Shown: positions 1,531-58,623 of the stretch, piece by piece
How positions within the stretch are numbered: the first letter of the stretch is position 1
How the letters are laid out: every line of letters begins with the position of its first letter
Assembly: GCA_034440615.1 (NCBI GenBank)
Contig: JAOTOM010004149.1
Location: forward strand, 167,489-231,488
Reading direction: 5' to 3'
Source of the DNA: Ashinkailepas kermadecensis
Lineage: Eukaryota > Arthropoda > Thecostraca > Neolepadidae
Length of the DNA stretch: 64,000 bases
Made by a program: the position numbers and the translations under genes
Notes under the pieces: model-generated
Database searches by the model: none
What the model was told of the DNA's origin: nothing
What the model saw: the letters and a program-made list of their open reading frames with translations, nothing else

Positions 1531-3065
1531 AATCAATCAATCAATCAATCATATATTGAGGTCTCCATAGTCCAGGCAATGTAGAAACAAGGCATGTACG
1601 TCATGGCTTTTCAGCCCTCTCGTCAAATCACAGTTGAAGATATAAGATAAAATGCCTACTGACCGTCTCCTGATTTAAAATCTAACAATAATAAAGCACA
1701 TTTGAGATGAGCGTATGCAGCACTATATCACGGGTGGCCAGCATCCTTCCTCAACTTCTCATTCCAAGCCGCGATTGCCCTGTATGGGAAGTTGTGTCTG
1801 GTGAATTCAGTCCTAATCCTAGGTAGCTCGAGCATATCTGCGTCTGTACCTCGTGTCCGCCTACTGGAGACTTCGTCACGACGGGTGAGACACTCTGCCA
1901 AGCTAGGAGGGACAGATGTAGACAAGAGCCTCTCGACCATGGCCATATCCCGCTCTTCGACCATCCTCTCGACCCCCGGCCAGCCCAGCGCCTCAAGGGT
2001 GGGCGTTATGTGTTCTCGTCTGCGCTGGCCGGAAACGATACGAGCGCCGAAATTTATGATCTTTTGAATTCTGTATTTCTGCGATTTGTTACAACCTCCC
2101 CAAACTGTCAAACAATACTGAAGGTGTGGGAAAACGAGAGCGTGAACAAGAAGTTTCTTTGTCTCACGCGGAATTTTGTGACGTAATTTTGAAAGCCCGA
2201 CGAGAACAAAATAACACCGCCGAGTGACCTGCGATACTTGCTTTTCCCATGTAAGAGCCGAATCCACGAATACCCCTAGAATCTTAGCGTGAGGCGAAGC
2301 CTCAATTTTGTTGCTTCCGAACTGGATGCTGAACGGGGCTGACTTTTTGCGCAGGGGTTTAATGATCAAGAGCTCAGTTTTGCTTGGGTTAATTTTGAGT
2401 CGACTCTGAGTGAACCAATTTTGGGCGACGCTGAGTGTGTCTTCGACACGCTGTATAAGCCTGGAAATATCCGAATCAGAGTCCAAAAATTGAATGTCAT
2501 CTGCATATGAAACTTGCTTACCACAATTTAGATGTGAGACCAGATCATTAGTGAAAATCAAAAATAATTTTGGTCCCAGCTGGGACCCCTGGACGACGCC
2601 GTGCGTCACCGGCAGGGGTCCAGCGGAACTGTCCTTTATTCTTTGGGTGCGGTCACTCAGCCAGTCCCTGAACCAGTGGTCACTGATCCCGTACCAACCG
2701 AGTTTGTCCAGAAGACGGTCGTGCTCCACCGAATCAAAGGCACGGGACGTATCAGCGGTCAACAAGACGGAAATCTGACCACGATCGCGGTTTGACGTCA
2801 AGTACGACATTGTCTCCAACATGGCGGTTTCGGTCGAGTGGCCGGAGCGAAAGCCGTGTTGGTTTCTAACAAATACATGATTTCTATCCAAATAAGCCGA
2901 CAACTGCAAATTTACCAGTTTTTCACATAGTTTGCCAACGACATTGAGAATTGAAATGGGCCTAAAGTTAGCTGGGTCAGTGCGATCTCCTTTTTTGTGC
3001 AAAGGTAACACAATCGCTTCCTTCCACTCAGCCGGCACCTCTCCAGATCTTGCCCGCACACACCA
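1531..3065 (-). mobile_element. 5'-truncated non-LTR retrotransposon (CR1/L2/jockey-like LINE) with ORF2 C-terminal half
   Basis: The - strand carries an uninterrupted reading frame from 3065 to the stop at 1728, followed by a roughly 200-bp 3' UTR ending in five ATTG/AATC tetranucleotide repeats (1531-1550). A short tandem tail of this kind is typical of CR1/L2-like LINEs. The 3' UTR also holds a small hairpin-prone GGGCTGAAAAGCC element near 1610. In-frame similarity stops abruptly at about 3065 in the middle of a conserved pre-RT motif, which fits 5' truncation during target-primed reverse transcription. No clear target-site duplication was found. Confidence 0.88.
1728..3065 (-). CDS. LINE reverse transcriptase, C-terminal portion of ORF2
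   Basis: About 445 codons without a stop. In order: GEVPAEWKEA and LPLHKKGD (conserved entry to the non-LTR RT domain), NFRPISIL, QHGFRSGHSTETA, the first catalytic Asp region DTSRAFDSVEHDRLL, VVQGSQLGPKLF, and the catalytic box YADD in SYADDIQFL. A C-terminal part then ends near FPYRAIAAWNEKL, usual for CR1/L2-like elements. The endonuclease domain and the start of ORF2 are missing, so the first codon here is arbitrary. The enzyme would copy element RNA at nicked target DNA. The lack of stops over so long a stretch suggests a young copy, but the truncation makes it non-autonomous. Confidence 0.9.
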   Translation of the reverse strand, partial: WCVRARSGEVPAEWKEAIVLPLHKKGDRTDPANFRPISILNVVGKLCEKLVNLQLSAYLDRNHVFVRNQHGFRSGHSTETAMLETMSYLTSNRDRGQISVLLTADTSRAFDSVEHDRLLDKLGWYGISDHWFRDWLSDRTQRIKDSSAGPLPVTHGVVQGSQLGPKLFLIFTNDLVSHLNCGKQVSYADDIQFLDSDSDISRLIQRVEDTLSVAQNWFTQSRLKINPSKTELLIIKPLRKKSAPFSIQFGSNKIEASPHAKILGVFVDSALTWEKQVSQVTRRCYFVLVGLSKLRHKIPRETKKLLVHALVFPHLQYCLTVWGGCNKSQKYRIQKIINFGARIVSGQRRREHITPTLEALGWPGVERMVEERDMAMVERLLSTSVPPSLAECLTRRDEVSSRRTRGTDADMLELPRIRTEFTRHNFPYRAIAAWNEKLRKDAGHP

Positions 3066-3178
3066 TTGTTCTATTTATGTACCTTTTGGTGAATTCAAAT
3101 GCAACAGGTTGTGGGGTGAAAGCTGGTGTGCATTTTACCTGTGCATGTTTTGTATCTTGTGTTCTGACTGCATGCTTG

Positions 3179-4568: not shown

Positions 4569-4670
4569 GTTCACTGCTGACCCAAGACCCGGTGTGGAGC
4601 TGTGACCTCGCTACGAACTGGTGACCCGGTGTTGGCCTGTGACCTCGCTGCGAACCTGTTACCCGGCGTG
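4569..4670 (+). promoter_or_regulatory. MRPS18B: Possible 3' splice site and 5' leader of MRPS18B with tandem duplication
   Basis: A plausible acceptor (pyrimidine-rich, CTGCAG ending at 4568) precedes the coding region. The leader between it and the start codon is made of roughly 37-bp tandem units starting with GACCCGGTG at 4586 and 4622, with a partial third unit from 4661. Each full unit carries CTGTGACCTCGCT or a close variant. An in-frame ATG at 4602 also exists in the first unit. I prefer the ATG at 4671 because it begins a mitochondrial targeting peptide, while the residues before it come from the repeat. Confidence 0.5.
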
Positions 4671-5258
4671 ATGCTGTGCGTACGGAGGATCGCAGGCATG
4701 CTGTTGCTGCCTGGTTCACGCTTAGTACCGGCGCTGTTGAACAGCGGCGGCGCTGTTCGGATTATGCACAGCGGCACCGACAGCAGCAGTGGCGTGGCCA
4801 GCGTGGACGAGCCCTCGCCGCGACCCATCAACAAGGACCGCAGCAACCCGGTGCCGGTGGAGACGAGCATGGCCTACCTAGAGAGCGCCGCTTACCGCGC
4901 CACATACGGCGACGAGCCGGTCTGGCGTAGCTATCGGCGCAACCACAAGGGCCACATCCCGCCGCGCAAGACGCGTCGCACGTGCGTGCGCGGCGGCCAG
5001 CTGGCTACCGGCAGCGCGTGCCCCATCTGCCGCGACGAGTTCCTGGTGCTCCACTACCAGAACACGGCGCTGCTGCGTCAGTTCGTGTCGGAGTTCAACG
5101 GTGCCGTGCTGGACTTCTCTCGGACGGGCCTGTGCCAGGTGCAGCACCGGCAACTGCTGGCCGCCATGCACAAGGCAAAGGAGTACGGCACCATGTCGTT
5201 CGACGTCCCCTTCCGTGTGTACGACTATGATGAGTACGCGCCGGTGGCCTCCGAGTAA
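4671..5258 (+). CDS. MRPS18B: Mitochondrial small-subunit ribosomal protein S18B (mS40)
   Basis: A 195-residue protein of the bS18 family, a component of the mitochondrial small ribosomal subunit. Residues 1-34 form a basic, hydrophobic targeting peptide (MLCVRRIAG, then leucine-rich) with arginines and almost no acidic residues. The conserved core follows: AYLESAAYRATYGDEPVW (68-85), YRRNHKGHIPPRKTRRTC (88-105), ACPICRDE (116-123) and RTGLCQVQHRQL (151-162). The cysteines at 105, 117, 120 and 155 match those conserved in S18B-type proteins. The pattern YRRNHKG...PP..TR.TC and the CPICRD box separate it from S18A and S18C. The coding region is unbroken here, whereas vertebrate orthologues are split into several exons. 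It is shorter at the C terminus than human MRPS18B. It lies tail-to-tail with the claudin-like gene (stop at 7878 on the - strand). Confidence 0.92.
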   Translation: MLCVRRIAGMLLLPGSRLVPALLNSGGAVRIMHSGTDSSSGVASVDEPSPRPINKDRSNPVPVETSMAYLESAAYRATYGDEPVWRSYRRNHKGHIPPRKTRRTCVRGGQLATGSACPICRDEFLVLHYQNTALLRQFVSEFNGAVLDFSRTGLCQVQHRQLLAAMHKAKEYGTMSFDVPFRVYDYDEYAPVASE

Positions 5259-5263
5259 AGGCG

Positions 5264-5388
<125 letters not shown>

Positions 5389-7877: not shown

Positions 7878-7990
7878 CTAGTAGTTGTACGGTCCGTACT
7901 GCGAGTTGTAGTAGGGGCCGGGCTGGGCATACTGCTGCGGGTATGCGTACGCAGGACCGTAGCCACCGTTCGAGGACTTCGTTGGGTACA
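7878..7990 (-). CDS. Claudin-like gene, terminal exon 7 (cytoplasmic tail)
   Basis: Acceptor TGTGTTCCAG, entry in phase 1, and 36 codons to the stop TAG. It encodes YPTKSSNGGYGPAYAY and then QQYAQPGPYYNSQYGPYNY, a low-complexity tail rich in Tyr, Pro, Gly and Gln, typical of cytoplasmic tails in this superfamily. The first two bases complete a Val codon with the last base of either exon 6 version. The Tyr-containing C terminus could be a PDZ ligand, but YNY is not a classical class I motif. Confidence 0.82.
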
Positions 7991-10114: not shown

Positions 10115-10775
10115 GTGCTGAGCGGGCACAACAGTCAGGTCCTGCTCAGGGACGACAACGACGAACTGGTCATGCCCTCACTGACAGTGTTGGGCGAGAT
10201 CCCACCTGGTGGGATCAAGTGGATGAAGCCTGAAGCCATTCACAAGGCCCGCTACATGACCCACGGGATCTATGACAACAAATGCTCGCCTTTCACATGG
10301 CCTTGAGCTACGACAGGGTCGCCCGTCACCGCCCTGCGTAGGTTTGTGCAGTTCAACTGCCTGTTATACGTCCTTCACTTCCTGCAGATGCTACAGTGAA
10401 CGATCTGCACTTCATCAAGCGGCTGTTGCGGTACAGAACAGTGGAACGCGACATGGTCGAGACAGCGCTGACGGTTATGCGGAGGCACAGCTGGCGCCTG
10501 ACCCAGGAGGTGGTGGTATTCGCCCTCTTCAGCGGCAGACTGAACGAAGACCAGAAGTCCCGGCTGGCAGCTAGACTCCTCACCTTCCCTATCCCGGAGG
10601 TCTTACAGCTCGGAGTCCCCGATTTCCCCGACGTGGAGCACACTCATCTGGTGGACCTGCTCGAACCCAACAGCTGGGCCCAGTTCAGGATCCTCAACGT
10701 CGGGTTCAACTGGCTGCAGAGCAGCCCCGAGACGTGGTCAGAGGAATCGGAGTGGAATACGCCACTGATAGAGAA
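10115..10775 (+). pseudogene. Degenerate copy of an uncharacterised, probably element-borne protein, antisense in intron 6
   Basis: Three pieces in different frames read as one protein: RDDNDELVMPSLTVLGEIPP with WMKPEAIHKARYMTHGIY (10115-10290); LRRFVQFNCLLYVLHFLQM (near 10338-10395); and NDLHFIKRLLRYRTVERDM through RRHSWRLTQEVVVFALFSG to PNSWAQFRILNVGFNWLQ (10398-10760). The motif order (KP.A.HKARWM, then ND...K.L..YR, then RRHxWYLT...FxLFS, then SW..F..L....WL) matches a family of uncharacterised proteins I recall as recurrent in invertebrate genomes and probably linked to mobile elements. I cannot give it a function. Frameshifts and loss of both ends make it a pseudogene. Its right edge runs straight into a duplicated splice-donor unit of exon 6a. 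Confidence 0.6.
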
Positions 10776-10889
10776 TGCCACACTAAGCTACTTACTGGGC
10801 ATGATGTAGGGCACGTCAGACTGAACCACTTACCGGGCTTGATGTTCGACATGCCACATTCAGCCACCTACCAGGCATGATGTAGGGCA
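10776..10889 (-). repeat. Triplicated donor region of exon 6a
   Basis: Three units of about 36-39 bp on the - strand each carry a candidate 5' splice site: ATGCCTG|GTAGGT (exon-proximal, 10872), CAAGCCCG|GTAAGT and ATCATGCCCA|GTAAGT. The outer two are nearly identical (TGCCCTACATCATGCC, then GTARGTRGCT), the middle one is diverged. The outer unit lies at 10776-10814. Confidence 0.75.
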
Positions 10890-11037
10890 GGCTGCGACGT
10901 TTGTCGCTGTACAGTTCTCGCTTCAGGCACACGGAGGCGCCAACGAACAGCAGTGCCGAGATGAGCACCCAGCCGACGCCGACCCACGCGATAAAATACG
11001 ACCAATCAAAGACGGCCACGCTGCGCTGCTGCAACAG
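10872..11037 (-). CDS. Claudin-like gene, exon 6a (alternative TM4 exon)
   Basis: Acceptor GTGGCTTCCAG, donor G|GTAGGT, 166 nt, in phase 0 and out phase 1. It encodes LLQQRSVAVFDWSYFIAWVG, then a hydrophobic TM4, then a basic juxtamembrane part CLKRELYSDKRRSLPYIMP. It has the same phases, position and motif order as exon 6b, 377 bp upstream in the transcript. Including both would shift the frame (166 and 169 are each 1 mod 3), as would skipping both, so the two are mutually exclusive by frame. Confidence 0.85.
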
Positions 11038-11414
11038 CTGGAAGCCACCGCGGCCGGTGTTAGTGTAGCACAGGGGTCAGACTCCAGGGGTCGGCACGGC
11101 AGCGCGATCGACGCTCTACCGGGTCGGCATGGCGACTTCTGCGAGCTTCGGGACGGGTGCGCTGGTGTCGGTCGGAATCTAGGAGAAGTGCCTGCCAGTC
11201 CTCGGGATGGTAACTTAGGGAAGAGATGTCAGGCCACCTCCAGGATAGGATGTCCCCTGGACACCGGAAGAGACATAGCAACGGTGGAGTCGCTGCAGGA
11301 ATGCCGTGCAGGGTGTTGTGAGTCATGCCACCCTCCACCAGCGGGCCAGGCCGGCCAGCGGAGCCGCGCCCCCTTCCACCACAGCCCACCGCCATGATCT
11401 GACAGCGCCATTAC
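11038..11414 (-). other. Short intron between alternative exons 6b and 6a
   Basis: 377 bp, GC-rich, with no obvious exon. It is short enough that docking or selector RNA structures controlling mutually exclusive splicing could lie here, but I did not identify a clear complementary pair. Confidence 0.6.
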
Positions 11415-11583
11415 CTGGCATCACCAGCTGCGAGTGCGACGACTCCGCCTGTTTCCTGCGCTCGCGCCGCAGGCAGACCGAGGCGATAGCTAGAAACAGG
11501 AAACTGAAGAACGCGCAACCTACGCCGACCCACGCGACGAAATAGCTCCAATCGAATGTGGCGTGACTGTGCCGTCGGGCCAG
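11415..11583 (-). CDS. Claudin-like gene, exon 6b (alternative TM4 exon)
   Basis: Acceptor CTCCTTTCTAG, donor CCAG|GTAATG, 169 nt, in phase 0 and out phase 1. It encodes LARRHSHATFDWSYFVAWVG, a hydrophobic TM4 and ASVCLRRERRKQAESSHSQL followed by VMP. FDWSYF(I/V)AWVGVG and ASVCL(K/R)RE are shared with exon 6a, while the first ten residues and the juxtamembrane part differ. The two forms would therefore differ in the loop before TM4 and in the cytoplasmic segment after it. The acceptor is multiplied in the adjacent 80-bp array. Confidence 0.85.
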
Positions 11584-11896
11584 CTAGAAAGGAGTGTCGA
11601 CAAGCGGTGGTCAGAAGTCTTCACCGAAGGTGGTCAACAGACGGTACAGATCACGGGCCAGCTAGAAAGGACAGTGTCGACAAGCGGTGGTCAGAAGTGT
11701 TCACCGAAGGTGGTCAACAGACGGTACAGATCACGGGCCAGCTAGAAAGGACAGTGTCGACAAGCGGTGGTCAGAAGTCTTCACCGAAGGTGGTCAACAG
11801 ACGGTACAGATCACGGGCCAGCTAGAAAGGACAGTGTCGACAAGCGGTGGTCAGAAGTCTTCACCGAAGGTGGTCAACAGACGGTACAGATCACGG
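11584..11896 (-). repeat. 80-bp tandem array multiplying the exon 6b acceptor
   Basis: Four nearly identical units start with + strand CTAGAAAGGA at 11584, 11662, 11742 and 11822. On the - strand each ends CCTTTCTAG|CTGGCCCG, which is the exon 6b 3' splice site plus the first eight exon bases. Only the copy at 11583/11584 leads into the real exon. The upstream copies would read into a stop within about 17 codons. Confidence 0.9.
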
Positions 11897-12622
11897 ACAC
11901 GGACTGTGCTCTGCGAAAATGGGAAACAGATATACAGCATAAGAAGCAAGCTGCATGTGATGAAGGATGCACAGATGATCGAAACTGAACTGTTCTACGC
12001 ATCAAAGACACGAAGATGAGCAGGCAAAGCCGGCTACGAATCCGCAGTGCGTCTCAGTCTGGGTACTACAGTGTGATATTTGGCATACATGCGCTGGAAA
12101 ACCGACAAGTTGAAGGGACAGAAATGCTGAGAAGTGTAATTGAAAATGTGCTGTCCATGCTCAAGGAAATACACAACAGACATGCACAGATGCTACAAGT
12201 TGTGTCCTGATGTTATCAATGACAGGTTGAAAGTAAGTTTTATAGGGCTCCATGGTGCCCATTATATTTATTAATCGACACAAGCCATGGCATGACTGGT
12301 AAAATAGCAACCAAGCTCCATACTTAATGGTCCAGATGACGTTATACAATCGACAGAACACACCACTAATATGATCCTCAATTCTGATATAGCGTATCAA
12401 ACTATGCATAGACCACAATAAACTACCTTCTTACCGCAACATTTTTTTCTGATAGTTGCTGGGCGTTCATGAGTTAATTGGTCGCCTAGTAGGTAGGCGT
12501 GGGGCACCAAATTGAATGACCTGGTATATTACACATATAGTTCACTTGATTGGGGTCTGGGTGAGTATGCAGCACATGCTACCGAACAAAATACTTCCCA
12601 AAGGGAGTGGCAGTTGCGAGGA
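11897..12622 (-). other. Intron 5, middle part
   Basis: AT-richer intronic DNA without a recognised exon or repeat. Confidence 0.4.
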
Positions 12623-13090
12623 TGACATGGCCCGGGTATGACACAGAAGACCTAAAACACGCTGTATTTATTTATCCGACTACCCGACAGGACATAGTCC
12701 GGGTATGACAGAGAAGATCTAAAACACGCTGCATTTCATTACCCGACTACCCAACAGGTAACGGTCCGGGTATGACACAGAAGATCTAAAACACGCTGTA
12801 CTTCATTACCTGACTACCCGACGGGGCATGGTTCGGGTATGATAGAGAACATCTAAAACACGCTGTACTTCATTACCTGACTACCCGACAGGGCATGGTT
12901 CGGGTATGATAGAGAACATCTAAAACACGCTGTACTTCATTACCTGACTACCCGACAGGGCATGGTTCGGGTATGATAGAGAACATCTAAAACACGCTGT
13001 ACTTCATTACCTGACTACCCGACGGGGCATGGTTCGGGTATGATAGAGAACATCTAAAACACGCTATATTTCATGACCTGACTACTCGAT
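12623..13090. repeat. 67-bp minisatellite, about 7 copies
   Basis: Units share CGGGTATGA, ATCTAAAACACGCTG, TTCATTACCTGACTACCCGA. The four central units are almost identical and the outer ones diverged. It is intronic (intron 5) and no splice-site match was seen in the unit. Confidence 0.95.
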
Positions 13091-13439
13091 ATGCAAGCTC
13101 AATGGCTACAGTTTATCGCCACCATAATAAACTGAGCACTTCCGGTCAACGAGTTCTTCAGCATGAGATCACAGTAGGCGGCGCTGGCACTCCTAGTTCG
13201 AATCTTAACACGAGCGTTGAACCATTACAAACCCTACCACAACAGCGCACCATCATGTACATGGGTGAGGGTTCTACCAGCCTCCCGACATCAAGTGATC
13301 CAGATGTTGCCTGCCACTTTTCTCGTGCCCAGAGCTTGTCGGCAAAACATGCATCTTACTTGACCAATCAAAATGTATCATATGTGATCTGATGGTGGGG
13401 ACGGGATAAAATATCAGTCACTGTGCAGGAAACTGGGAG

Positions 13440-13756
13440 TTTATCCAGTCTCTAGATGGGAGGTCTGTGAAGCATTATCTACCAGACAGCAAGTCGGTGG
13501 AGCATTAACCACCGTATAGGAGGCTGGTGAAGTCTCAGTCACGGAACAAGAGGCCGATGGAGTAGCAGTCACTGGACAAAGGGCCGATGGAGTAGCAGTC
13601 ACTGGACAAAGGGCCAATGGAGTAGCAGTCACTGGACAAAGGGCCGATGGAGTAGCAGTCACTGGACAAAGAGCCGATGGAGTAGCAGTCACTGGACAAA
13701 GGGCCAGTGGAGCAGCAGTCATCGGGTACGATACCTATGGAGCATGAGCCACGTAC
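13440..13756 (-). repeat. 30-bp minisatellite abutting the exon 5 donor
   Basis: About ten units on the - strand (GGCCCTTTGTCCAGTGACTG, then CTACTCCAT). Five between 13557 and 13710 are nearly identical and the distal ones degenerate. The array starts at the exon 5 donor itself: the exon end TGGCCTGAG, donor GTACGT and following GCTCATGCTCCAT align loosely with a unit. Confidence 0.85.
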
Positions 13757-13854
13757 CTCAGGCCAGCTGAGGAAGAAGGGCTCCTCGTTGAGCTTTTTCT
13801 GCTCATAGTACTGCACGCCGTGCCACAGGCCCATGGAACCGGCCGAAAACAGAC
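13757..13854 (-). CDS. Claudin-like gene, exon 5 (second half of TM3 and loop 2)
   Basis: Acceptor GACCCCACAG, donor CCTGAG|GTACGT, 98 nt, in phase 1 and out phase 0. It encodes LFSAGSMGLWHGVQYYEQKK and LNEEPFFLSWPE. The leading hydrophobic part continues TM3 from exon 4, and the rest is the short second extracellular loop. Confidence 0.85.
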
Positions 13855-15046
13855 CTGTGGGGTCAGGCCAAAGCACTGTCGGTTAGAACGTCTGGCGACG
13901 TCAAGTCGGCCGGATTAGACTCACTCGATAACATACCTGTGGTGTCATGTTGTATTGGGTTATAACTGCATATTATGACAATGTCGTATATTTGTACAGA
14001 CTTCCCGCGAACTCGGGAAGTCAGAACGTGCGTGGCTTAGCTCTGGGTATGTCTCTGGTTTACTGGGGTTATATATCTGATACATGAGTCACAGGACCTG
14101 AGCATCTATGTCGGAGCGCTACAGTCAGACATGTGTGGATAGATCTGGCGGGAGAGTGCCGCGCCAGTTTGAGAGCATAATGATAATTTTAGCGATGTAC
14201 GGTGTTCTCTTGGTGGAACGCCAAGACACTGATGCGAAGTGGTAAGAATTTAGCTGCACGTCAATCTGTGTGTCTGTATGAACTTTTCACATCATCACGA
14301 ATGCAATTCTAGTTTTTCTGAACAATAGTAAGCAATCTACCTAAACGGTCACCGCAGAACACAGAGGCAGATCCAGGAATTATCATGGGAAGGGGCACAT
14401 TTCCTCGGATGGGCGCCTTCGGCAAAAAAAATCGACTTTTCGTCTCAATGGGTGTCTTTTCCTTTAAAATCGGCGACTTTAGCTGAAAAGAAATACATTG
14501 AGGGGTAAGAAGTGCATCCGAGCATCCTAAAGGGCCGCTTTACCGGCCGGAAGGGCAACACCCTTTCATGGGGGACACATGCCTCCAGTGCTCCCCTACT
14601 GTATTTGCCCCTGGCAGAATAGGAGCAGCTCGACTGCACTTCCCAAACTTTGACTTCTTCGGTCGCATGCATCAGCATTGAAGACAATTAAATGCCATCC
14701 CATGTGATACCGCACGTTTCGTACCAGTTACAGCGTCCTCGTAGTCATCGGAAGTCCATGCTTCACACAAATGCCATCTAGATATTTATATCCTCTTTTT
14801 CACAATTGTAGCACCACAGGAACGCCAGAAGTGAATCATATGCAATAACACAATAGAAGCGTACCAAAAAAACGAACACGAAAACCCAATATTATGCTAC
14901 TGTCAAGGTGTAGTTTGTTCTTAGCTGTAGAAGGCCCTTAGCTGTATTAGGTGTTAAGGTGCGTCGACGAAATGTCATAATTCACCGTATGTTGTGTTTA
15001 ACTTCGATATATACTGTAAGGAAACACCAATGTCCAAAACTGTGGG
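13855..15046 (-). other. Intron 4, with a possible MITE end at 14362
   Basis: No exon recognised. CAGAGGCAGATCCAGGA at 14362 resembles the terminus of the hAT-like family at 52977-53215, but no matching right end or target duplication could be found. Confidence 0.4.
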
Positions 15047-15663
15047 TGATGACAAGAGAGCAGCATGAGGGTGGCAGTGGGTACTGACACGAGAGTACTG
15101 GCATACGAGAGAGTACTGACACAGTGGGTACTGACACACGAGAGCAGTATGGGGGCGGCAGTGGGTACTGACACGAGAGCAGCATGAGAGCGGCGGTGGG
15201 TACTGGCACGAGAGCAGCATGAGGGCGGTAGTGGGTACTGACACGAGAGCAGCATGAGGGCTACAGTGGGTACTGACACGAGAGCAGCATGAGGGCTACA
15301 GTTGGGTACTGACACGAGAGCAGCATGAGGGCTACAGTGGGTACTGACACGAGAGCAGCATGAGAGCGGCAGTGGGTACTGACACGAGAGCAGCATGAGA
15401 GCGGCGGTGGGTACTGGCACGAGAGCAGCATGAGGGCGGTAGTGGGTACTGACACGAGAGCAGCATGAGGGCTACAGTGGGTACTGACACGAGAGCAGCA
15501 TGAGAGCGGCAGTGGGTACTCACACGAGAGCAGCATGAGGGCGGTAGTGGGTACTGACACGAGAGCAGTATTAGGGAGGCAGGGGGTACGGACACGAGAG
15601 CAGTATTAGGGAGGCAGGGGGTACTGACACGAGAGCAGTATTAGGGAGGCAGTGGGTACTGAC
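15047..15663 (-). repeat. 35-bp minisatellite made of the exon 4 end and its splice donor, about 18 copies
   Basis: On the - strand each unit reads CTCATGCTGCTCTCGT|GTCAGTACC followed by CACTGCCGC or a variant. This is the last bases of exon 4 plus its donor. The exon itself (15664-15698) is the first, exon-encoded unit. Most copies keep GTCAGT, and the one with its donor at 15523 has the stronger GTGAGT. Reading past the true donor gives a stop codon within about eight codons. Lack of stops in many distal units creates spurious frames of up to 140 codons. Confidence 0.93.
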
Positions 15664-15801
15664 ACGAGAGCAGCATGAGGGCGGCGGTGGTTCCGATGTT
15701 TCCCGGAGAGCGTCTCCAGCAGCCGGCAACACCCGTCCAGAACGCCACGAACACGAAGAAGAACGCGGCGATGAAGAGCGCTATCATGGAGCGGGCCATG
15801 T
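15664..15801 (-). CDS. Claudin-like gene, exon 4 (TM2 and start of TM3)
   Basis: Acceptor CCCTCTTGCAG, donor CTCTCGT|GTCAGT, 138 nt, phase 1 on both sides. It encodes MARSMIALFIAAFFFVFVAF and WTGVAGCWRRSPGNIG, then TTAALMLLS. TM2 is followed by a short basic cytoplasmic loop and the start of TM3, as in claudin-superfamily proteins. The first codon completes His and the last base joins GT of exon 5 to give Cys. Confidence 0.87.
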
Positions 15802-16249
15802 CTGCAAGAGGGCGCAGTCGGGATCAGAACACGTCAGCTGGTTGAGACAGGGCTTTGTGTACTCTATATAGCCATCTTATGGTCTGGCTGTTCGTCCATA
15901 CAAGCACCCAATCATCAAACTGCTTCCTTTCAGCAGACACTAATGGGTGGTCCATTTTCAGATGGATGAATAATGCCTGGGAATGGGCTCACGTGATGGC
16001 GGTGAATCTAATTATCGGAAAACAATGGCGACATGCAGGGTGGTGCCTATAAAAAAAATGAATTGAGTGGGAAATACATTTTTGTCATGCCATTATTTCC
16101 AGCCAAGTCCATAGCTCCCAAGCTAAAACTCCGAAACATTGGGAGGGGACAAGTGGTCCCCTAAAAGCATCGAAAGGGTACGTGGCCTAAGTGGCGCAAG
16201 GAAGATTTTCCTACGGGTCCAGAGAAAAGAAATGTGATGAAATGAAAAA
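15802..16249 (-). other. Intron 3, proximal part
   Basis: No exon or clear repeat recognised. Confidence 0.4.
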
Positions 16250-16405
16250 GCGTTCAGCGTGCGAAGCTTCCGATGCGTGAGAAGGCTTACGGCGCAAGAA
16301 GCGCAGCGAAAAATTTATGGTTTTGCGTGGGGAAAACTGTAAAATTTATCATTTCATCTAATATATTTTTGGATGCTAGGGGGGGGGGCGTTGGCTGCAC
16401 CCCTG
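16250..16405. mobile_element. Partial MITE, family 1
   Basis: The right end GGCTGCACCCCTG is the inverted terminus of family 1. The inner part (a GCGC-rich block followed by AAAATTTATCATTTCATCTA and GGATGCTA) matches the same positions of the 8478-8677 element. The left terminus is uncertain and no target duplication was confirmed. Confidence 0.55.
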
Positions 16406-17032
16406 CATGACCTTATCGGATAACCCTTTAATTTTTCCCATTTCACGAAACTTTAACGGAGCTCAATCGCCTTGAAGATCAGTTCGGAAACCGCAAATAT
16501 GATATTGCGGGCTGGTCAACATATGAGAAGATGAGGATGTAGTGCTAAATAAAATGCGTTACTGTCTTCATATTTGTAACCTGGGTTGAGCCATGAGGAG
16601 ATGGTTTTGTCCAAGATCGACACACATAAATATATATTTTTGGATGGGAAGACTAATGTTTTTAGCTGTCACCAGTTCGCTCACTGAGATACGACAGTAA
16701 GATAATGATACAGGTAGGTATTATAGATAGAGCAATGAGATCAAGCTTCTCACAGATTGGCTGGTATGTTGGCTTTTGATGATACATACCCCACCCCACC
16801 CAGGTCACTTCAAGTCATGGCAGGGAGTATTGAGTGTGAAAAGAAGAAAACTGCAGAATAACTTATCGAATCATTTAACTATTAACCTCAGACGTACTTC
16901 CGTATTTTGCCGCTTTCGGCAACACCGGGGAGGGGGCGTAAGAACCCCTGGTGATACTGAACTATGCTAGCTACAGAAGTGAAACAAAAACCAGCGTATT
17001 TCCTACTATGAGGTCTCGGGATTAACAGCACT

Positions 17033-17227
17033 CAGAGACGCAGCCAGGGAGGGTCCGGGGGCCCGCCCCGAGCAACTAAAAATACACTGGCTCAAACAAG
17101 AACTTTCGAGATTTTCACCACGCAATAACAGAAATTGTCGGCGTGCTTTGCGCACCGAAAGCGGTCTCTGTTTCTGATATATTTCTTTTGGTCCGGCACC
17201 CTTTCGAAAATCCTGGCTGCGCCCCTG
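17033..17227. mobile_element. hAT-type MITE, family 1, 195 bp
   Basis: Termini are CAGAGACGCAGCCAGG (left) and CAGGGGCGCAGCCAGG (right, inverted). Flanks are ACAGCACT (17025-17032) and ACAGCAAG (17228-17235), a probable 8-bp target duplication with two mismatches. It is non-coding and lies in intron 3. Confidence 0.8.
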
Positions 17228-19032
17228 ACAGCAAGCGTGACTCCGTAGGATCATTGGTTGACCCCAAGAGTGAGGTCGAAGGTAAAGTCGCCGGAAAATG
17301 GAAACATTTCGCGACTTTCTGCATGGTTTGACAAATCCGTTGTCCAAGTTCCCAACCAGGAAATTTGACTAAAGTACTCTATTTGATCTAATAATCGTAG
17401 CGATGGATGGCAAGCTGCCTGTTGTTGCACAGCGAAGATGCTGGGTCAGTTCAAGTGCATGACCCTACTTTCGAATTGTCCGAAAACTTGTGGAACGTGT
17501 CCAATTTTCAGTTTTCTATAACAAAAAAGGCACTGAATTTGAATTCGGTGCCACAACAAATACACTAGAGTAGATCCATTCCAAATCTGCAAATATCACC
17601 CGAGGTCATCTTGGGTTGCTGACCTTGGTTAAACTTCAATAGCGAGCGACTTATGTTTTCCTTCCCGGGGTAAAGTTGACGCTGAAATCAATTCAGTGGG
17701 AAAATATGCAAGGCCGGAAAAGCAGCAAGGTTGACGGCGGTTGACGGTATCACGTCCCTGACGTGACCTGGCCGTTAACCTTGACAGTATCAAGGTTGAC
17801 GGCCGGGCGGTATCACAGCGGTTGACTGATAACCTTGACCTTCATTTAATTGGCACGCTCATCAATGCATCACGAATGCATGACCAAGGTGCGAATTAAT
17901 ATATAACAGAACGCAGGTACAGATAAAGCATTGATTTTCAATAACAAATCGTCGGTGTAGTCATTATTTTGCTCAGCTATGACCTGAACAATGGCATAAG
18001 TCGGTGACCTGAAATGACACATATTTGAAATTTCGGACAATGTGCAAAAGGTTCACAAATAGCTATTGTAAATTTCATCAAAATCGGTCGCCGCGATTAA
18101 ACGTTAGACTCCGAAAAACCATTAACCCCATTCCTCGTGTGACGGCGACGGTTAATCCTATAGCCTTCCAAGGCAATAATCAACTTAAAAAGTTGCCTTG
18201 ACCACTCTACTTTCCTTCGGATGCTCCCATGCTCGTGACAGAGGAGGAGGACAAGTGCAGTAAACAGTCTGAAAGGCTAGGAACATGTCAAGCCAGGGAC
18301 ACGACTGGAGCCAATATATTGCCGGATTTTGTCACTAACGTGGTACCGAATAATGGCAATTGTGTTACTAGCGTGGCACCGAATAATGGCAATAGTGTCA
18401 CGCCAGTGACACCATTGATAAAGCCCGGGGCTCTCCCGCCTCCTCCGTAGAAAACGAAAGTGCGATCTTGACCCTTGACCTATGCTGATGAGCTGAGCGG
18501 TCGGAGTGGGTCACGAATGGTGCACAACAGAGCTCACCAGTCTGTCTGGCAGCCGGCTGGGCGGCATGGCTGACCGCTCCATCAACAGGCACCTAATCAG
18601 TGTCAGGCGTGCATGCTGTTGAATAGCCAACTGTCTCAAGCGAGGCGAGGAAGGGCCATTGTGCGAGACAGCGTAAAATTTGCTTCGCCAAGCACCAACA
18701 CATGGTTGTGATCTGCGAGCATAACCGCCGCATACTCTGTTAGTGTAATCTGATGACGGTCAATATTAACATATAGGTAACTACAGACCACTCACAGCAC
18801 CAAACAAAGGTATTCGACGAATCTGAGCACAGCCGTTGTCTGAAATATCTTGTTGTTAGTGGAAAATGACGCACCAATGAAAGCAATTTCTCATTCTTCC
18901 TTCTAATATCACAGACGATCTTCTACTTCCAGATATAAATTTTCAATCCGTGCAAATTATGTCTGATTGCAAAAAGCATTGCACCAAGAGAAAGAATCAC
19001 AAAGTGATGTATTTGAAGCTTGCGTGATCATG
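17228..19032 (-). other. Intron 3, distal part
   Basis: A two-copy 33-bp tandem repeat (GCACCGAATAATGGCAAT core) lies near 18331-18400. Around 17720-17840 the words TTGACGG and GGTATCAC recur several times. No exon recognised. Confidence 0.45.
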
Positions 19033-19195
19033 GTTATTGGTTTTTACGACACGTCGACGATTGAGTCACGCAGCGTCACCAATCTCTCACGCCAATTGGT
19101 CGCGGGCGAAAAGTACCGACAGGTGAGACTCGAACCCACAATCTTTCGATTGTGAGACGGGCAATTTACCCCTAGACTACTCGTCCCCTCTCTGG
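19033..19195 (-). mobile_element. tRNA-derived SINE, family A, fuller copy
   Basis: The - strand starts GGGGACGAGTAGTCTAGGGG (A box) and has GTGGGTTCGAGTCTCACC as an intact B box and T arm. It ends with ACGTGTCGTAAAAACCAATA. It is about 85% like the 3179-3319 copy but retains the B box. No clear target duplication was seen. Confidence 0.8.
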
Positions 19196-19390
19196 TTTTA
19201 TCAACTTTGTCCACACTTTCACTGCATCCCCAACAGTAGCTTTGAACTGTCAACATCCTGGCTTAAAATGCATTTTGGTGACCTACCTACGATCGCATAG
19301 CATTCCCACGAAAATGTTGGTTCTCTGTTATTGCTGCAGTCACGGGAACAAGATCAAAGCACGTAGCCAAGTCATGCGCTTCAGTGGGCT

Positions 19391-19548
19391 CGCGCGGCAG
19401 TCATGCGCTGCACTCCGTTACGCGGCAGAGCCATGTGCCCCACTCATAGTCACGCGGCAGAGCCATGTGCCCCACTCATAGTCGCGCAGCAGATCCTTGC
19501 ATCACACTCTAGTCGCGCAGCAGAGCCATGCACCCCATATATACTCAC
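19391..19548 (-). repeat. 32-bp minisatellite made of the exon 3 end and its splice donor, 5 copies
   Basis: Units on the - strand follow CATGGCTCTGCYGC|GYGACTA, copies of the exon 3 end CATGGCTCGACTGC|GTGAGTA. The donor GT is changed to GC in the two copies nearest the exon and kept as GT in the two after them. The outermost unit is degenerate. Confidence 0.85.
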
Positions 19549-19659
19549 GCAGTCGAGCCATGCGCTCCACAGAGAAAGCCTTAGTGAGGTTCTCTTCATC
19601 CGGAATGTAGTAGTCGATGTTTTCGCAGTAGGTTTCCACAGGACTGAGATAGAGTTCCA
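19549..19659 (-). CDS. Claudin-like gene, exon 3 (extracellular loop 1, second half)
   Basis: Acceptor TTATATTTCAG, donor GACTGC|GTGAGT, 111 nt, phase 1 on both sides. It encodes ELYLSPVETYCENIDYYIPD, then EENLTKAFSVERMARL. It carries the second loop Cys, a predicted N-glycosylation sequon (NLT) and the segment leading into TM2. IP..(N)LTK resembles the same region of TMEM178. Confidence 0.85.
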
Positions 19660-20405: not shown

Positions 20406-21350
20406 GGTGATGATGATGAATTGGAGTTTAGGGGTGCGTCGACTACCAGGGTCATTTTGCGCCCAGAGCTGTATCATAAACAATCTACGATGCTGCTATA
20501 ATAGCTTGTTCACGGCTGACGGTATATCACCTCAAAGCGTGCTTGTCAAAGGAAGGTAAAAATATACCCAGACGTCACGACCTCAGAGTCGTTCCCTATT
20601 AGCGTACGTAAAGAAGTGTCGTCGTTCAGCCGTCATGAAATCTGGCGTCGTGAAGGTTCCAACAGTACACAACCCACTCAAACATGATACACAGTAAGCA
20701 GGCTAGAACAGCGTAGGCATAAAGGCCGGTCATCACCGATCAGCATGCAACTGTGTGTCGCGAAGGTGTGACCTATCCTCAATCGGCAGAGCATTTATTT
20801 CTCCCGTCGTTGGGTTTGGTGTGAGGATCGCCACTGTTCTAGTTTCGGCTTTAAAACCCTCAGCTTACTACACTTTGAGTTTCAGCCTCGTTGCCATTCT
20901 GACCGTTTACTTAACAATAAGATATAGGTCTCTTGGAGGGAGCCGTAGATGAACATCACGGCCATTGCTGATAGCGTGTTTGGCAGTTATGTCAGCAGCT
21001 TCTTTTCCAGCGAGTCCGACATGACTGGGAATCCAGCAGAACACGATATTTCTGCCGATGTCATGCAGGGATTTAACGACTCTGATAATCCTACTGACAA
21101 GTATGGTATCCTGGTTGAAGGCTTTCAATGCGAGGAGACTGCTCAGGGTGTCTGTGAAAACCACGCGCTTTGTGGACCGGTCTTCCTGTTTAAAATAGAG
21201 GGCTTGCAGAATGGCACACAACTCGGCAGTAAAAATCGATGTGTGTATCGGTAAACAAAAAGACAGAACACCTTGTCGACTGACGCAAGCACATCCAACA
21301 CCGGAAACGGACTTGGAACCGTCGGTGTAAATCCGCGAGAAGTCGTTATA
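20406..21350 (-). mobile_element. Degenerate jockey-like LINE, RNase H to 3' end
   Basis: On the - strand an RNase H domain starts IYTDGSKSVSGVGCACVS (first catalytic Asp in TDGS). It continues with FTAELCAILQAL (Glu), VVFTDTLSSLLALKAF (Asp) and IVFCWIPSHVGLAGKEAADI, and ends at a stop near 20907. In other frames the usual sequel is visible: LKPKLEQWRSSHQTQRRE, CRLRIGHTFATHSCMLIGDD, LCLRCSSLLTVYHV. The tail is TCATCATCATCA near 20412. A stop just before the RNase H domain and several frameshifts make it a fossil. It lies in intron 2, in the sense orientation of the host gene. Confidence 0.88.
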
Positions 21351-30195: not shown

Positions 30196-30325
30196 CTCCT
30201 TTGGGTTTCGTCTCGGGATAGCAGACCCTGAAGAGGCCTTGTGTGCGTGACCGGAACAGCCCGGACGACTCGAACCTTTCCTGGTCGACGGCAGACAGCG
30301 TGCCCAGGCCGCTGGCCATGTCCTC
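30196..30325 (-). CDS. Claudin-like gene, exon 2 (extracellular loop 1, first half)
   Basis: Acceptor GGTGCCATTGCAG, donor AAAGGAG|GTGAGA, 130 nt, in phase 0 and out phase 1. It encodes EDMASGLGTLSAVDQERFES, then SGLFRSRTQGLFRVCYPETK and PKG. GLFRVC corresponds to the GLW..C signature of loop 1. Neither splice site is duplicated, unlike exons 3-6. Confidence 0.85.
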
Positions 30326-37399: not shown

Positions 37400-40300
37400 G
37401 AGCGACACCACACTGAGGTGCAGTGGAACTGACAGTGAAGCCGTGGCGACACCACACTGAGGTGCAGTGGAACTGACAGTGAAGCCGTGGCGACACCACA
37501 CTGAGGTGCAGTGGAACTGACAGTGAAGCCGTGGCGACACCACACTGAGGTGCAGTGGAACTGACAGTGAAGCCGTGGCGACACCACACTGAGGTGCAGT
37601 GGAACTGACAGTGAAGCCGTGGCGACACTACACTGAGGTGCAGTGGAACTGACAGTGAAGCCGTGGCGACACCACACTGAGGTGCAGTGGAACTGACAGT
37701 GAAGCCGTGGCGACACCACACTGAGGTGCAGTGGAACTGACAGTGAAGCCGTGGCGACACCACACTGAGGTGCAGTGGAACTGACAGTGAAGCCGTGGCG
37801 ACACCACACTGAGGTGCAGTGGAACTGACAGTGAAGCCGTGGCGACACCACACTGAGGTGCAGTGGAACTGACAGTGAAGCCGTGGCGACACCACACTGA
37901 GGTGCAGTGGAACTGACAGTGAAGCCGTGGCGACACCACACTGAGGTGCAGTGGAACTGACAGTGAAGCCGTGGCGACACCACACTGAGGTGCAGTGGAA
38001 CTGACAGTGAAGCCGTGGCGACACACGACAGCTGGAGGTGCAGTGGAACTGACAGTGAAGCCGTGGCGACACCACACTGAGGTGCAGTGGAACTGACAGT
38101 GAAGCCGTGGCGACACACACTGGGGGGGGGGGGAAAAGGGGAGTGGCGACACCACACTGAGGTGCAGTGGAACTGACAGTGAAGCCGTGGCGACACCACA
38201 CTGAGGTGCAGTGGAACTGACAGTGAAGCCGTGGCGACACCACACTGAGGGTGGAACTGACAGTGAAGCCGTGCGAACACTGAGGTGCAGTGGAACTGAC
38301 AGTGAAGCCGTGGCGACACCACACTGAGGTGCAGTGGAACTGACAGTGAAGCCGTGGCGACACCACACTGAGGTGCAGTGGAACTGACAGTGAAGCCGTG
38401 GCGACACCACACTGAGGTGCAGTGGAACTGACAGTGAAGCCGTGGCGACACCACACTGAGGTGCAGTGGAACTGACAGTGAAGCCGTGGCGACACCACAC
38501 TGAGGTGCAGTGGAACTGACAGTGAAGCCGTGGCGACACCACACTGAGGTGCAGTGGAACTGACAGTGAAGCCGTGGCGACACCACACTGAGGTGCAGTG
38601 GAACTGACAGTGAAGCCGTGGCGACACCACACTGAGGTGCAGTGGAACTGACAGTGAAGCCGTGGCGACACCACACTGAGGTGCAGTGGAACTGACAGTG
38701 AAGCCGTGGCGACACCACACTGAGGTGCAGTGGAACTGACAGTGAAGCCGTGGCGACACTACACTGAGGTGCAGTGGAACTGACAGTGAAGCCGTGGCGA
38801 CACCACACTGAGGTGCAGTGGAACTGACAGTGAAGCCGTGGCGACACCACACTGAGGTGCAGTGGAACTGACAGTGAAGCCGTGGCGACACCACACTGAG
38901 GTGCAGTGGAACTGACAGTGAAGCCGTGGCGACACCACACTGAGGTGCAGTGGAACTGACAGTGAAGCCGTGGCGACACCACACTGAGGTGCAGTGGAAC
39001 TGACAGTGAAGCCGTGGCGACACCACACTGAGGTGCAGTGGAACTGACAGTGAAGCCGTGGCGACACCACACTGAGGTGCAGTGGAACTGACAGTGAAGC
39101 CGTGGCGACACCACACTGAGGTGCAGTGGAACTGACAGTGAAGCCGTGGCGACACCACACTGAGGTGCAGTGGAACTGACAGTGAAGCCGTGGCGACACC
39201 ACACTGAGGTGCAGTGGAACTGACAGTGAAGCCGTGGCGACACCACACTGAGGCAGTGGAACTGAAGTGAAGCCGTGGCGACACCACACTGAGGTGCAGT
39301 GGAACTGACAGTGAAGCCGTGGCGACACCACACTGAGGTGCAGTGGAACTGACAGTGAAGCCGTGGCGACACCACACTGAGGTGCAGTGGAACTGACAGT
39401 GAAGCCGTGGCGACACCACACTGAGGTGCAGTGGAACTGACAGTGAAGCCGTGGCGACACCACACTGAGGTGCAGTGGAACTGACAGTGAAGCCGTGGCG
39501 ACACCACACTGAGGTGCAGTGGAACTGACAGTGAAGCCGTGGCGACACCACACTGAGGTGCAGTGGAACTGACAGTGAAGCCGTGGCGACACCACATCAG
39601 TGGAACTGACAGTGAAGCCGTGGCGACACCTACACTGAGGTGCAGTGGAACTGACAGTGAAGCCGTGGCGACACCACACTGAGGTGCAGTGGAACTGACA
39701 GTGAAGCCGTGGCGACACCACACTGAGGTGCAGTGGAACTGACAGTGAAGCCGTGGCGACACCACACTGAGGTGCAGTGGAACTGACAGTGAAGCCGTGG
39801 CGACACCACACTGAGGTGCAGTGGAACTGACAGTGAAGCCGTGGCGACACCACACTGAGGTGCAGTGGAACTGACAGTGAAGCCGTGGCGACACCACACT
39901 GAGGTACAGTGGAACTGACAGTGAAGCCGTGGCGACACCACACTGAGGTGCAGTGGAACTGACAGTGAAGCCGTGGCGACCCACCACTTATGGGCAGTGG
40001 AACTGACAGTGAAGCCGTGGCGACACCACACTGAGGTGCAGTGGAACTGACAGTGAAGCCGTGGCGACACCACACTGAGGTGCAGTGGAACTGACAGTGA
40101 AGCCGTGGCGACACCACACTGAGGTGCAGTGGAACTGACAGTGAAGCCGTGGCGACACCACACTGAGGTGCAGTGGAACTGACAGTGAAGCCGTGGCGAC
40201 ACCACACTGAGGTGCAGTGGAACTGACAGTGAAGCCGTGGCGACACCACACTGAGGTGCAGTGGAACTGACAGTGAAGCCGTGGCGACACCACACTGAGG

Positions 40301-41868
40301 TGCAGTGGAACTGACAGTGAAGCCGTGGCGACACCACACTGAGGTGCAGTGGAACTGACAGTGAAGCCGTGGCGACACCACACTGAGGTGCAGTGGAACT
40401 GACAGTGAAGCCGTGGCGACACCACACTGAGGTGCAGTGGAACTGACAGTGAAGCCGTGGCGACACCACACTGAGGTGCAGTGGAACTGACAGTGAAGCC
40501 GTGGCGACACCACACTGAGGTGCAGTGGAACTGACAGTGAAGCCGTGGCGACACCACACTGAGGTGCAGTGGAACTGACAGTGAAGCCGTGGCGACACCA
40601 CACTGAGGTGCAGTGGAACTGACAGTGAAGCCGTGGCGACACCACACTGAGGAGTGGAACTGACAGTGAAGCCGTGGCGACACCACACTGAGGTGCAGTG
40701 GAACTGACAGTGAAGCCGTGGCGACACCACACTGAGGTGCAGTGGAACTGACAGTGAAGCCGTGGCGACACCACACTGAGGTGCAGTGGAACTGACAGTG
40801 AAGCCGTGGCGACACCACACTGAGGTGCAGTGGAACTGACAGTGAAGCCGTGGCGACACCACACTGAGGTGCAGTGGAACTGACAGTGAAGCCGTGGCGA
40901 CACCACACTGAGGTGCAGTGGAACTGACAGTGAAGCCGTGGCGACACCACACTGAGGTGCAGTGGAACTGACAGTGAAGCCGTGGCGACACCACACTGAG
41001 GTACAGTGGAACTGACAGTGAAGCCGTGGCGACACCACACTGAGGTGCAGTGGAACTGACAGTGAAGCCGTGGCGACACCACACTGAGGTACAGTGGAAC
41101 TGACAGTGAAGCCGTGGCGACACCACACTGAGGTACAGTGGAACTGACAGTGAAGCCGTGGCGACACCACACTGAGGTACAGTGGAACTGACAGTGAAGC
41201 CGTGGCGACACCACACTGAGGTACAGTGGAACTGACAGTGAAGCCGTGGTCACACTACACTGAGGTACAGTGGAACTGACAGTGAAGCCGTGGCGACACC
41301 ACACTGAGGTACAGTGGAACTGACAGTGAAGCCGTGGCCACACTACACTGAGGTGCAGTGGAACTGACAGTGAAGCCGTGGCGACACCACACTGAGGTAC
41401 AGTGGAACTGACAGTGAAGCCGTGGCGACACTACACTGAGGCGCAGTGGAACTGACAGTGAAGCCGTGGCGACACTACACTGAGGTACAGTGGAACTGAC
41501 AGTGAAGCCGTGGCGACACTACACTGAGGTGCAGTGGAACTGACAGTGAAGCCGTGGCGACACTACACTGAGGCGCAGTGGAACTGACAGTGAAGCCGTG
41601 GCGACACTACACTGAGGTGCAGTGGAACTGACAGTGAAGCCGTGGCGACACCACACTGAGGTGCAGTGGAACTGACAGTGAAGCCGTGGCGACACTACAC
41701 TGAGGTGCAGTGGAACTGACAGTGAAGCCGTGGCGACACTCACACTGAGGTGCAGTGGAACTGACAGTGAAGCCGTGGCCACACCACACTGAGGTGCAGT
41801 GGAACTGACAGTGAAGCCGTGGCGACGCCACACTGAGACACAGTGAAACTGACGGTGAAGTCGAAGCA
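37400..41868. repeat. 44-bp satellite, about 100 copies
   Basis: The unit has GTGGCGACACCACACTGAGG and TGCAGTGGAACTGACAGTGA plus AGCC. The core is almost invariant. Variants with GGTACAG instead of GGTGCAG, and CACTACAC instead of CACCACAC, cluster at the right end (40980-41840), as expected when unequal exchange homogenises the middle. Short disturbed stretches occur at 38025-38040, 38116-38150, 38245-38280, 39250, 39595 and 39985. None of the three - strand frames has a stop in the unit, which explains frames of up to 897 codons. Confidence 0.98.
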
Positions 41869-58497: not shown

Positions 58498-58623
58498 CTG
58501 GATCAGCTTCCTGTCGACGCGTATGTACATCCAGTTGTCGGTGCCGAACGCGATGCCGAGGAGCGCCACCGAGACCACCCCGGCCACGGTGGCCAGGGAG
58601 AGCGTTATAGCGGAGCAGACCAT
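58498..58623 (-). CDS. Claudin-like gene, exon 1 (start codon and TM1)
   Basis: The ATG at 58623-58621 is in GCGAGCGATGG, a fair initiation context. The 42 codons end at donor ATCCAG|GTGAGT in phase 0. It encodes MVCSAITLSLATVAGVVSVA, then LLGIAFGTDNWMYIRVDRKL and IQ. A single hydrophobic segment (4-28) is followed by GTDNW, close to the GTDYW of stargazin-type gamma subunits, at the start of extracellular loop 1. Upstream in-frame codons have no other ATG close by. Assignment to the same gene as exons 2-7 rests on phase and domain order. Confidence 0.82.

Follow-up and report, generated by a model that had tools for sequence, protein, structure and literature searches.

Minisatellites spanning splice junctions in a claudin-like gene of a barnacle

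Results

The window analysed here (the whole stretch of 64,000 nucleotides) is barnacle DNA and holds on its minus strand a claudin-like tetraspan gene, in which minisatellite arrays called by Tandem Repeats Finder (TRF) enclose four out of 14 splice sites: the donors of exons 3, 4 and 6b and the acceptor of exon 6a. The unit of each spanning array is a copy of its own exon edge, splice signal included. Probably, these arrays are minisatellites of the type called mirages, derived from ordinary tandem duplication in a minisatellite-rich barnacle genome.

The limits of the eight coding exons, all on the minus strand, were set from homology and splice phase. Coding exon 1 (58498..58623, ATG at 58623), placed by homology to P0001 and splice phase, has a clean donor, exon 2 (30196..30325) has two clean junctions with the nearest array 301 bp away, and exon 7 (7880..7990), the last coding one, has a clean acceptor. 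The junctions of these three exons are free of arrays, as had been claimed for exons 1 and 2 in an earlier, sequence-only reading of this DNA. Between them lie exons 3 (19549..19659), 4 (15664..15801) and 5 (13757..13854) and the alternative exons 6a (11415..11583) and 6b (10872..11037), which were placed by the isoforms among Pollicipes and Amphibalanus proteins and, for 6a, also by phase. The 6a and 6b isoforms each translate into a full barnacle-like protein.

TRF recovered, likewise on the minus strand, each of the arrays noted in that reading, with units of 32, 35, 30, 36–39 (38 bp, at exon 6b) and 80 bp. The exon 3 donor is spanned by 4.8 copies of the 32-bp unit (19420..19570, 22 exon bp inside), the exon 4 donor by 16.2 copies of 35 bp (15122..15690, 27 exon bp inside), the exon 6a acceptor by 4.0 copies of 80 bp (11576..11896, 8 exon bp inside) and the exon 6b donor by 3.0 copies of 38 bp (10777..10889, 18 exon bp inside). 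Four, perhaps five, boundaries had been described as expanded; those of exons 3, 4, 6a and 6b do lie inside arrays, but the exon 5 donor was rejected as a fifth, because the 30-bp array (6.2 copies, 13536..13721) is located 35 bp downstream of it and the likeness between unit and junction gave P values of 0.06 and 0.09. The exon 5 acceptor has an old displaced copy (13926..13947, minus strand, 19 of 22 bases) in the intron, 82 bp upstream, which was missed by TRF. A copy test that does not depend on TRF detects junction copies at five of the 14 splice sites. Two further arrays in the same 9 kb (12626-13089 and 18326-18401) are off any junction.

The exon ends within the first units encode residues common to the claudin-like gene, Pollicipes and Amphibalanus, which points to the exon as the source of the units. 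In the spanning arrays such barnacle-conserved exon-coding bases reappear within the intron, in agreement with the earlier view that the units were seeded from the junctions. When stretches of the 35-bp and the 80-bp array were searched against the genome, with very common words skipped, no other locus matched either of them. A rule that unit lengths are never divisible by 3 fits the spanning arrays of this gene (32, 35, 38, 80) but was abandoned, as units at the CCT chaperonin genes described below include 30, 57 and 66.

In a copy-by-copy list, GT is present in two of the five downstream exon 3 copies and absent from three, and GTGAGT occurs in none. Among 16 exon 4 copies, 14 have GT in register and ten the unchanged donor CGT|GTCAGT. 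At exon 6b the real donor is GTAGGT and both extra donors are GTAAGT, with consensus matches of 8 and 7 out of 9 for the surplus donors vs 7 for the real one. At exon 6a there are four identical acceptors CTTTCTAG|CTGGCCCG, the AG being kept in all three surplus copies. A frame shift is predicted for 18 out of 23 surplus donor copies in register (exons 3, 4 and 6b), and read-through from exon 4 would meet a stop codon inside the second unit; thus, use of the first site appears to be the viable outcome.

Under a naive coverage null the four spanned junctions compare with 2.9 expected (P=0.34), under a collapsed null, in which every array is reduced to one founding unit, with 0.41 expected (P=0.0006). 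The exon 6a donor was placed one base off in this test, with no effect on the counts. We think that the founding-unit count is the right null for a junction test; naive coverage treats multiplied copies as targets and is only reported alongside. The value of P=0.0006 is optimistic, because the gene was chosen for its eye-catching pattern. An exon-masked test retains only two of its 14 junctions. In 13 stretches of 10 kb from the 908-Mb genome, placed by contig number at our own choice and not by random draw, 76 arrays were found (5.8 per 10 kb, 17% minisatellite). The density in the window, with 35 merged arrays and 21% coverage, is near that of the sampled stretches, so that the window appears typical of the genome.

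A paralog has the same eight coding exons, the 6a/6b pair included, but none of its 14 junctions is spanned by an array. None of the 14 reached P<=0.01 in the copy test either (lowest P 0.033 and 0.043 in two runs; two further runs likewise gave 0 of 14; the exon 5 end is possibly one base off). The judgement that independent chance births at so many junctions are unlikely had overlooked the density of arrays in the sampled stretches, and it is weakened further by the paralog. The two genes share their exon plan, and no new intron was seen in this comparison, which is with the paralog only.

As an independent set, not picked for arrays, the CCT chaperonin genes were used, with eight contig loci counted as eight genes. 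From 52 matches, five were dropped (the single long open frames C3743 and C4636 and the apparent second-allele contigs C3901, twice, and C1409), which left 47 exons with 86 junctions, set automatically by a GT/AG score near the ends of the profile match. Three calls are doubtful: L076 is overlapped by the match of the prior exon, L045 has an uncertain exon end, and the array of L078 stops 6 bp before the junction. The counts below are reported both ways, doubtful calls included or excluded, and the exclusions were chosen after the hits were known. TRF arrays span 9 of the 86 junctions vs 2.8 expected (P=0.002), or strictly, with one doubtful call out, 8 (P=0.007), in four of the eight genes. 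Exon-masked arrays abut 10 junctions vs 2.0 expected (P=3e-5; strict 7 of 86, P=0.004). The junction-copy test gives 11 of 86 vs 5.5 (P=0.021), or 10 of 86 without the doubtful one (P=0.048), and 11 of 100 when pooled with the paralog (P=0.055). All these junction P values are too small, since junctions of the same gene are not independent. CCT arrays less than 60 bp from a junction and not crossing it number 6 vs 6.2 expected; therefore the surplus is located at the junction itself. One spanning array is also present on a second, apparently allelic contig, both with 7.3 copies of 40 bp and the units arranged differently, which argues against a slip in the assembly of a single contig. The proposed excess of arrays at junctions, checked here in part, is thus seen in the strict CCT counts, about 2- to 3.5-fold over the collapsed null, but is only two-fold in the junction-copy test.

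Discussion

The arrays extend from the exon toward the intron, and junction arrays recur in unrelated genes. According to the explanation favoured here, a duplication straddling the exon-intron border would leave the protein intact; the exon-adjacent copy would retain reading frame and splice site, and all further copies would be intronic, where they could multiply or decay freely. Exonic births would be purged, intronic births would be neutral, and births across the border would persist one-sidedly. The modest excess at junctions may at least partly reflect slower decay of the exon-side copy and not targeting. We infer that the surplus copies are neutral and that the exon-proximal splice site is used; a genuine, modest junction preference is possible. 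The strict CCT counts (8 of 86 vs 2.8; exon-masked 7 of 86 vs 2.0) nevertheless exceed what purely uniform births would give, and the bias from slower decay should not affect the exon-masked counts. Furthermore, the surplus donors of exon 6b match the consensus at least as well as the real one, so that a simple rule by which the first site wins is insufficient.

These same CCT counts, strict or not, would be expected if junctions were preferred birth sites, through transcription-coupled breaks, R-loops or splicing-linked repair, and gained arrays several times faster than elsewhere. The expected number of arrays near but not across CCT junctions and the five junction copies in the claudin-like gene alone point in this direction as well. 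However, the CCT copy test is weaker and loses further when pooled with the paralog, the paralog has no spanned junction, exon masking leaves two of 14 in the claudin-like gene, and the P values suffer from the dependence among junctions of one gene. A constrained exon copy also decays slower, by which old duplications stay detectable longer there. We therefore regard preferred birth as fairly unlikely. The wider proposition that barnacle junctions are birth hot spots of minisatellites, several-fold over other DNA and convergent with amphioxus, with an array at about one in ten junctions, is tentative, and we lean against it.

The location of arrays at the 6a acceptor and the 6b donor, the four identical 6a acceptors and the ten unchanged exon 4 donors could suggest functional splice-site ladders or regulators of the choice between 6a and 6b. 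This is very improbable: the paralog has the same pair without a junction array, three of five exon 3 copies lack GT, and junctions are spanned in CCT genes too, none of which to our knowledge is part of an alternative exon pair. Upkeep of the copies is inconsistent, which speaks against the selection for ladders considered in the sequence-only reading, even if excerpts of one report describe a C. elegans minisatellite as over-represented close to alternative splicing regions (PMC4039745). Insertion at the junctions, be it of dispersed intron-invading (introner-like) elements or of a satellite family, is in our view an extremely unlikely origin. Several junctions of one gene are alike in layout, but each unit is specific to its array and derived from its own exon edge, and the 35-bp and 80-bp units match their own locus only, which contradicts such an origin for these two out of the four junction-spanning arrays in the gene.

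Mirage reports found so far come from amphioxus only. If about one in ten barnacle junctions carries a mirage, as our small sample suggests, the cause may be the birth rate of minisatellites and not one lineage. Such junctions would then provide numerous natural experiments on the choice that the spliceosome makes among identical neighbouring splice sites, and on intron gain and evolution by tandem duplication.

The comparison with known systems draws on excerpts of the reports cited. Intron gain through tandem genomic duplication, for instance in potato RdRp (PMC4974935), resembles the present case in that a tandem duplication within a gene is tied to splicing, and differs from it as no new intron is seen relative to the paralog, the only comparison. 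The CeRep25B minisatellite of C. elegans also occurs near alternative splicing regions (PMC4039745), but it is a named repeat in many genes, whereas the barnacle units are each derived locally. The sequence-only reading had named no described system, but junction-spanning minisatellites are not an undescribed kind. Their precedent are the amphioxus mirages, tandem repeats across exon-intron boundaries in Adh3, the globins BflGb6 and BflGb9 and troponin C (PMC3087553), with similar repeats in PGBD5 of amphioxus (PMC3902484). For the mirages, RT-PCR found normal mRNA splicing undisturbed (PMC3087553); the barnacle arrays are described here at the level of DNA. Among the matches listed in our literature search, in which subscription journals were mostly not covered, no junction-spanning minisatellites were found for barnacles or other arthropods, and the claudin-like gene is the first arthropod mirage case found in the literature searched. 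Like the mirages, as far as these excerpts describe them, the barnacle arrays cross the exon-intron boundary at the 5' or 3' side, occur in several genes, have unit lengths of similar order and carry splice signals in many, not all, copies; unlike them, they reside in a barnacle and not in a cephalochordate, and affect four to five boundaries in one gene.

The claudin-like gene and its surroundings

The assembly totals 907.7 Mb in 4689 contigs, and the window, C3652:167489-231488, comprises the final 64 kb of a 231-kb contig. Its claudin-like gene, whose coding exons were placed by homology from 58623 to 7880 on the minus strand, belongs to the PMP22/claudin-type tetraspans (PF13903; two composites scored E 1.9e-19 and 9.5e-21). 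Its best protein matches, at 77% identity to an uncharacterized protein of Pollicipes pollicipes and at 67% and 62% to proteins of Amphibalanus amphitrite, identify the DNA as that of a barnacle. Exons 6a and 6b are, judged by homology, alternatives, since the Pollicipes isoform P0001 has a 6a-type and the Amphibalanus isoform P0002 a 6b-type stretch; translation of either window isoform gives no stop codon.

The intron separating exons 1 and 2 holds about 102 copies of a 44-bp unit (4.5 kb, 37402–41860). An S18-type ribosomal protein gene, presumably mitochondrial S18B, forms a single open coding stretch at 4671–5255 (+; PF01084); about 12 bases past its stop codon lies the beginning of a (GTGC)n run (5270–5386), and a 37-bp array (4586–4678) overlaps the start region of this gene. 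Open frames for reverse transcriptase (PF00078) and RNase H (PF00075) at 1728–3074 (-) and 20907–21350 (-) are probably retrotransposon remains.

Arrays spanning splice junctions

The sequence-only reading had at least four, perhaps five, exon boundaries of this gene expanded. Four of its 14 splice sites indeed lie inside TRF arrays: the donors of exon 3 (32-bp unit, its first copy including 22 exon bases), exon 4 (35-bp unit, 27 exon bases) and exon 6b (38-bp unit, 18 exon bases), and the exon 6a acceptor (80-bp unit, 8 exon bases). A TRF-free copy test, comparing a 32-bp junction probe with the adjoining intron, recovers the same four and adds the exon 5 acceptor, for which a copy matching at 19 of 22 bases lies 82 bp upstream; comparison of unit and junction did not demonstrate that the nearby exon 5 donor gave rise to the 30-bp array. 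With exons masked, TRF leaves an abutting array at two of the 14 junctions, the donor of exon 4 and the acceptor of exon 6a; the arrays at exons 3 and 6b are short, and their TRF detection relies on the exon copy. On the opposite strand, a 155-codon open frame (10342–10809, +) overlaps the edge of the exon 6b array and matches nothing in Pfam at E up to 0.1.

At the exon 6a acceptor CTTTCTAG/CTGGCCCG occurs four times, all identical, with the real site among them. Downstream of exon 3, GT is found in two of five copies and GTGAGT in none, the fifth copy sitting just outside the TRF array. The 16 in-register downstream copies of exon 4 show CGT/GTCAGT in 10, GT in 14 and GTGAGT in one. Both exon 6b copies read GTAAGT, the real donor GTAGGT; they score 8 and 7 against the nine-base consensus, the real donor 7. 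Because a frame shift is predicted for 18 of 23 surplus donor positions (exons 3, 4 and 6b), and read-through from exon 4 meets a stop inside the second unit, splicing at the surplus donors would in most cases ruin the protein.

Among genome matches to the claudin exons no allelic-looking second contig was found, and the window arrays rest on one assembly. In the eight CCT chaperonin genes, an acceptor array (locus L044, C4646:270287-271139) recurs on contig C3901 (L086), apparently the other allele, with the same total of 7.3 copies of 40 bp and with variant units arranged differently; the array near the CCT exon L045 is almost identical on both contigs. This recurrence argues against a one-off assembly error at the L044 array.

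Comparison with chance expectation

Thirteen 10-kb background stretches on other contigs, their sites picked by contig number and not drawn at random, contain 76 arrays after merging, or 5.8 per 10 kb, which cover 17% of the sequence; the window holds 35 (21% coverage). With junctions placed on the expanded sequence, 2.9 spanned junctions are expected versus four seen (P = 0.34; by rotation 0.38), and four are ordinary. Since tandem duplication inserts sequence rather than overwriting it, each array should be counted as one founding unit; then 0.41 are expected (P = 0.0006, an optimistic value as the gene was selected by eye).

The CCT genes, not chosen for arrays, gave 86 junctions from 47 of 52 exons matching the PF00118 profile (strict counts, without doubtful matches, in brackets). 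TRF arrays span 9 (8) junctions versus 2.8 expected from the background stretches (P = 0.002; 0.007), exon-masked arrays abut 10 (7) versus 2.0 expected from 82 of 3529 random points, or 2.3% (P = 3e-5; 0.004), and the copy test finds 11 (10) versus 5.5 expected from 1082 of 16907 collapsed random positions, or 6.4% (P = 0.021; 0.048); these P values are too small, because spanned junctions cluster by gene (strict TRF matches fall in four of eight genes, as 3, 2, 2 and 1) while the tests assume independence. Copy-probe matches occur at 14 of 887 positions in exon interiors. Very clear acceptor-spanning copies are seen at L042 (C4646:266903-267698) and L082 (C3687:168390-168875), where exon coding sequence recurs in the upstream intron.

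An ancient whole-genome duplication has been reported for barnacles (PMC11331182). A paralogous claudin-like gene (C3687:176001-236000; L020-L025 at C3687:180800-234429) has the same exon plan, 6a and 6b included, and 60 minisatellites in 60 kb (27% coverage); none of its 14 junctions is array-spanned, and the copy tests also gave no match there. A neighbouring CCT gene on C3687 has three spanned junctions. The comparison of TRF arrays with splice sites that had been proposed genome-wide yields, on this sample, an excess in the CCT genes and none in the paralog. The copy test, whose background within the window and paralog stretches is 5.3% and 7.6%, gives 11/100 for CCT genes and paralog (P = 0.055) and 16/114 with the window added (P = 0.0025). 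If the CCT copy-test rate of 12.8% is taken as the expectation, P is 0.025 for five of 14 junctions and 0.15 for zero of 14, which makes the claudin gene a rich case, though no astonishing one.

Origin of the arrays

We consider it probable that frequent tandem duplication, with persistence of those births that cross an exon border, best explains the arrays. In a genome where short tandem duplications are very frequent, a duplication across an exon border would persist, as it leaves one exon edge intact, splice site included, and everything else is intron. The exon end is the source of the units, because its codons specify residues that other barnacles conserve; a genome search with two units, which skips very common words, returned no locus beyond their own. 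That splice junctions are instead preferred for array birth appears unlikely. The surplus is two- to three-fold relative to uniform births; on this sample, either real targeting or a slower loss of the copy under exon constraint may account for it. In the CCT genes it survives the exon-masked test, which should remove a bias from slow decay, and it is located at the junction itself and not beside it (6 arrays within 60 bp without crossing versus 6.2 expected); both observations favour targeting. It is likewise doubtful that barnacle junctions are minisatellite birth hot spots, several-fold over other DNA and convergent with amphioxus, with about one junction in ten carrying an array.

Comparison with amphioxus mirages

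Among the papers listed by the literature searches, none reported mirage-type, junction-spanning minisatellites for barnacles or other arthropods. The sequence-only reading knew of no described system of this kind; the same structure is, however, described as mirages in amphioxus (excerpts of PMC3087553 and PMC3902484). There, units measure 10–72 bp (Adh3) or about 150–160 bp (globins), and AG/GT is present in many copies, though not in all; RT-PCR pointed to normal splicing, array length is reported to be unstable, and the authors propose a route to intron gain. The barnacle arrays fit the structural definition of amphioxus mirages.
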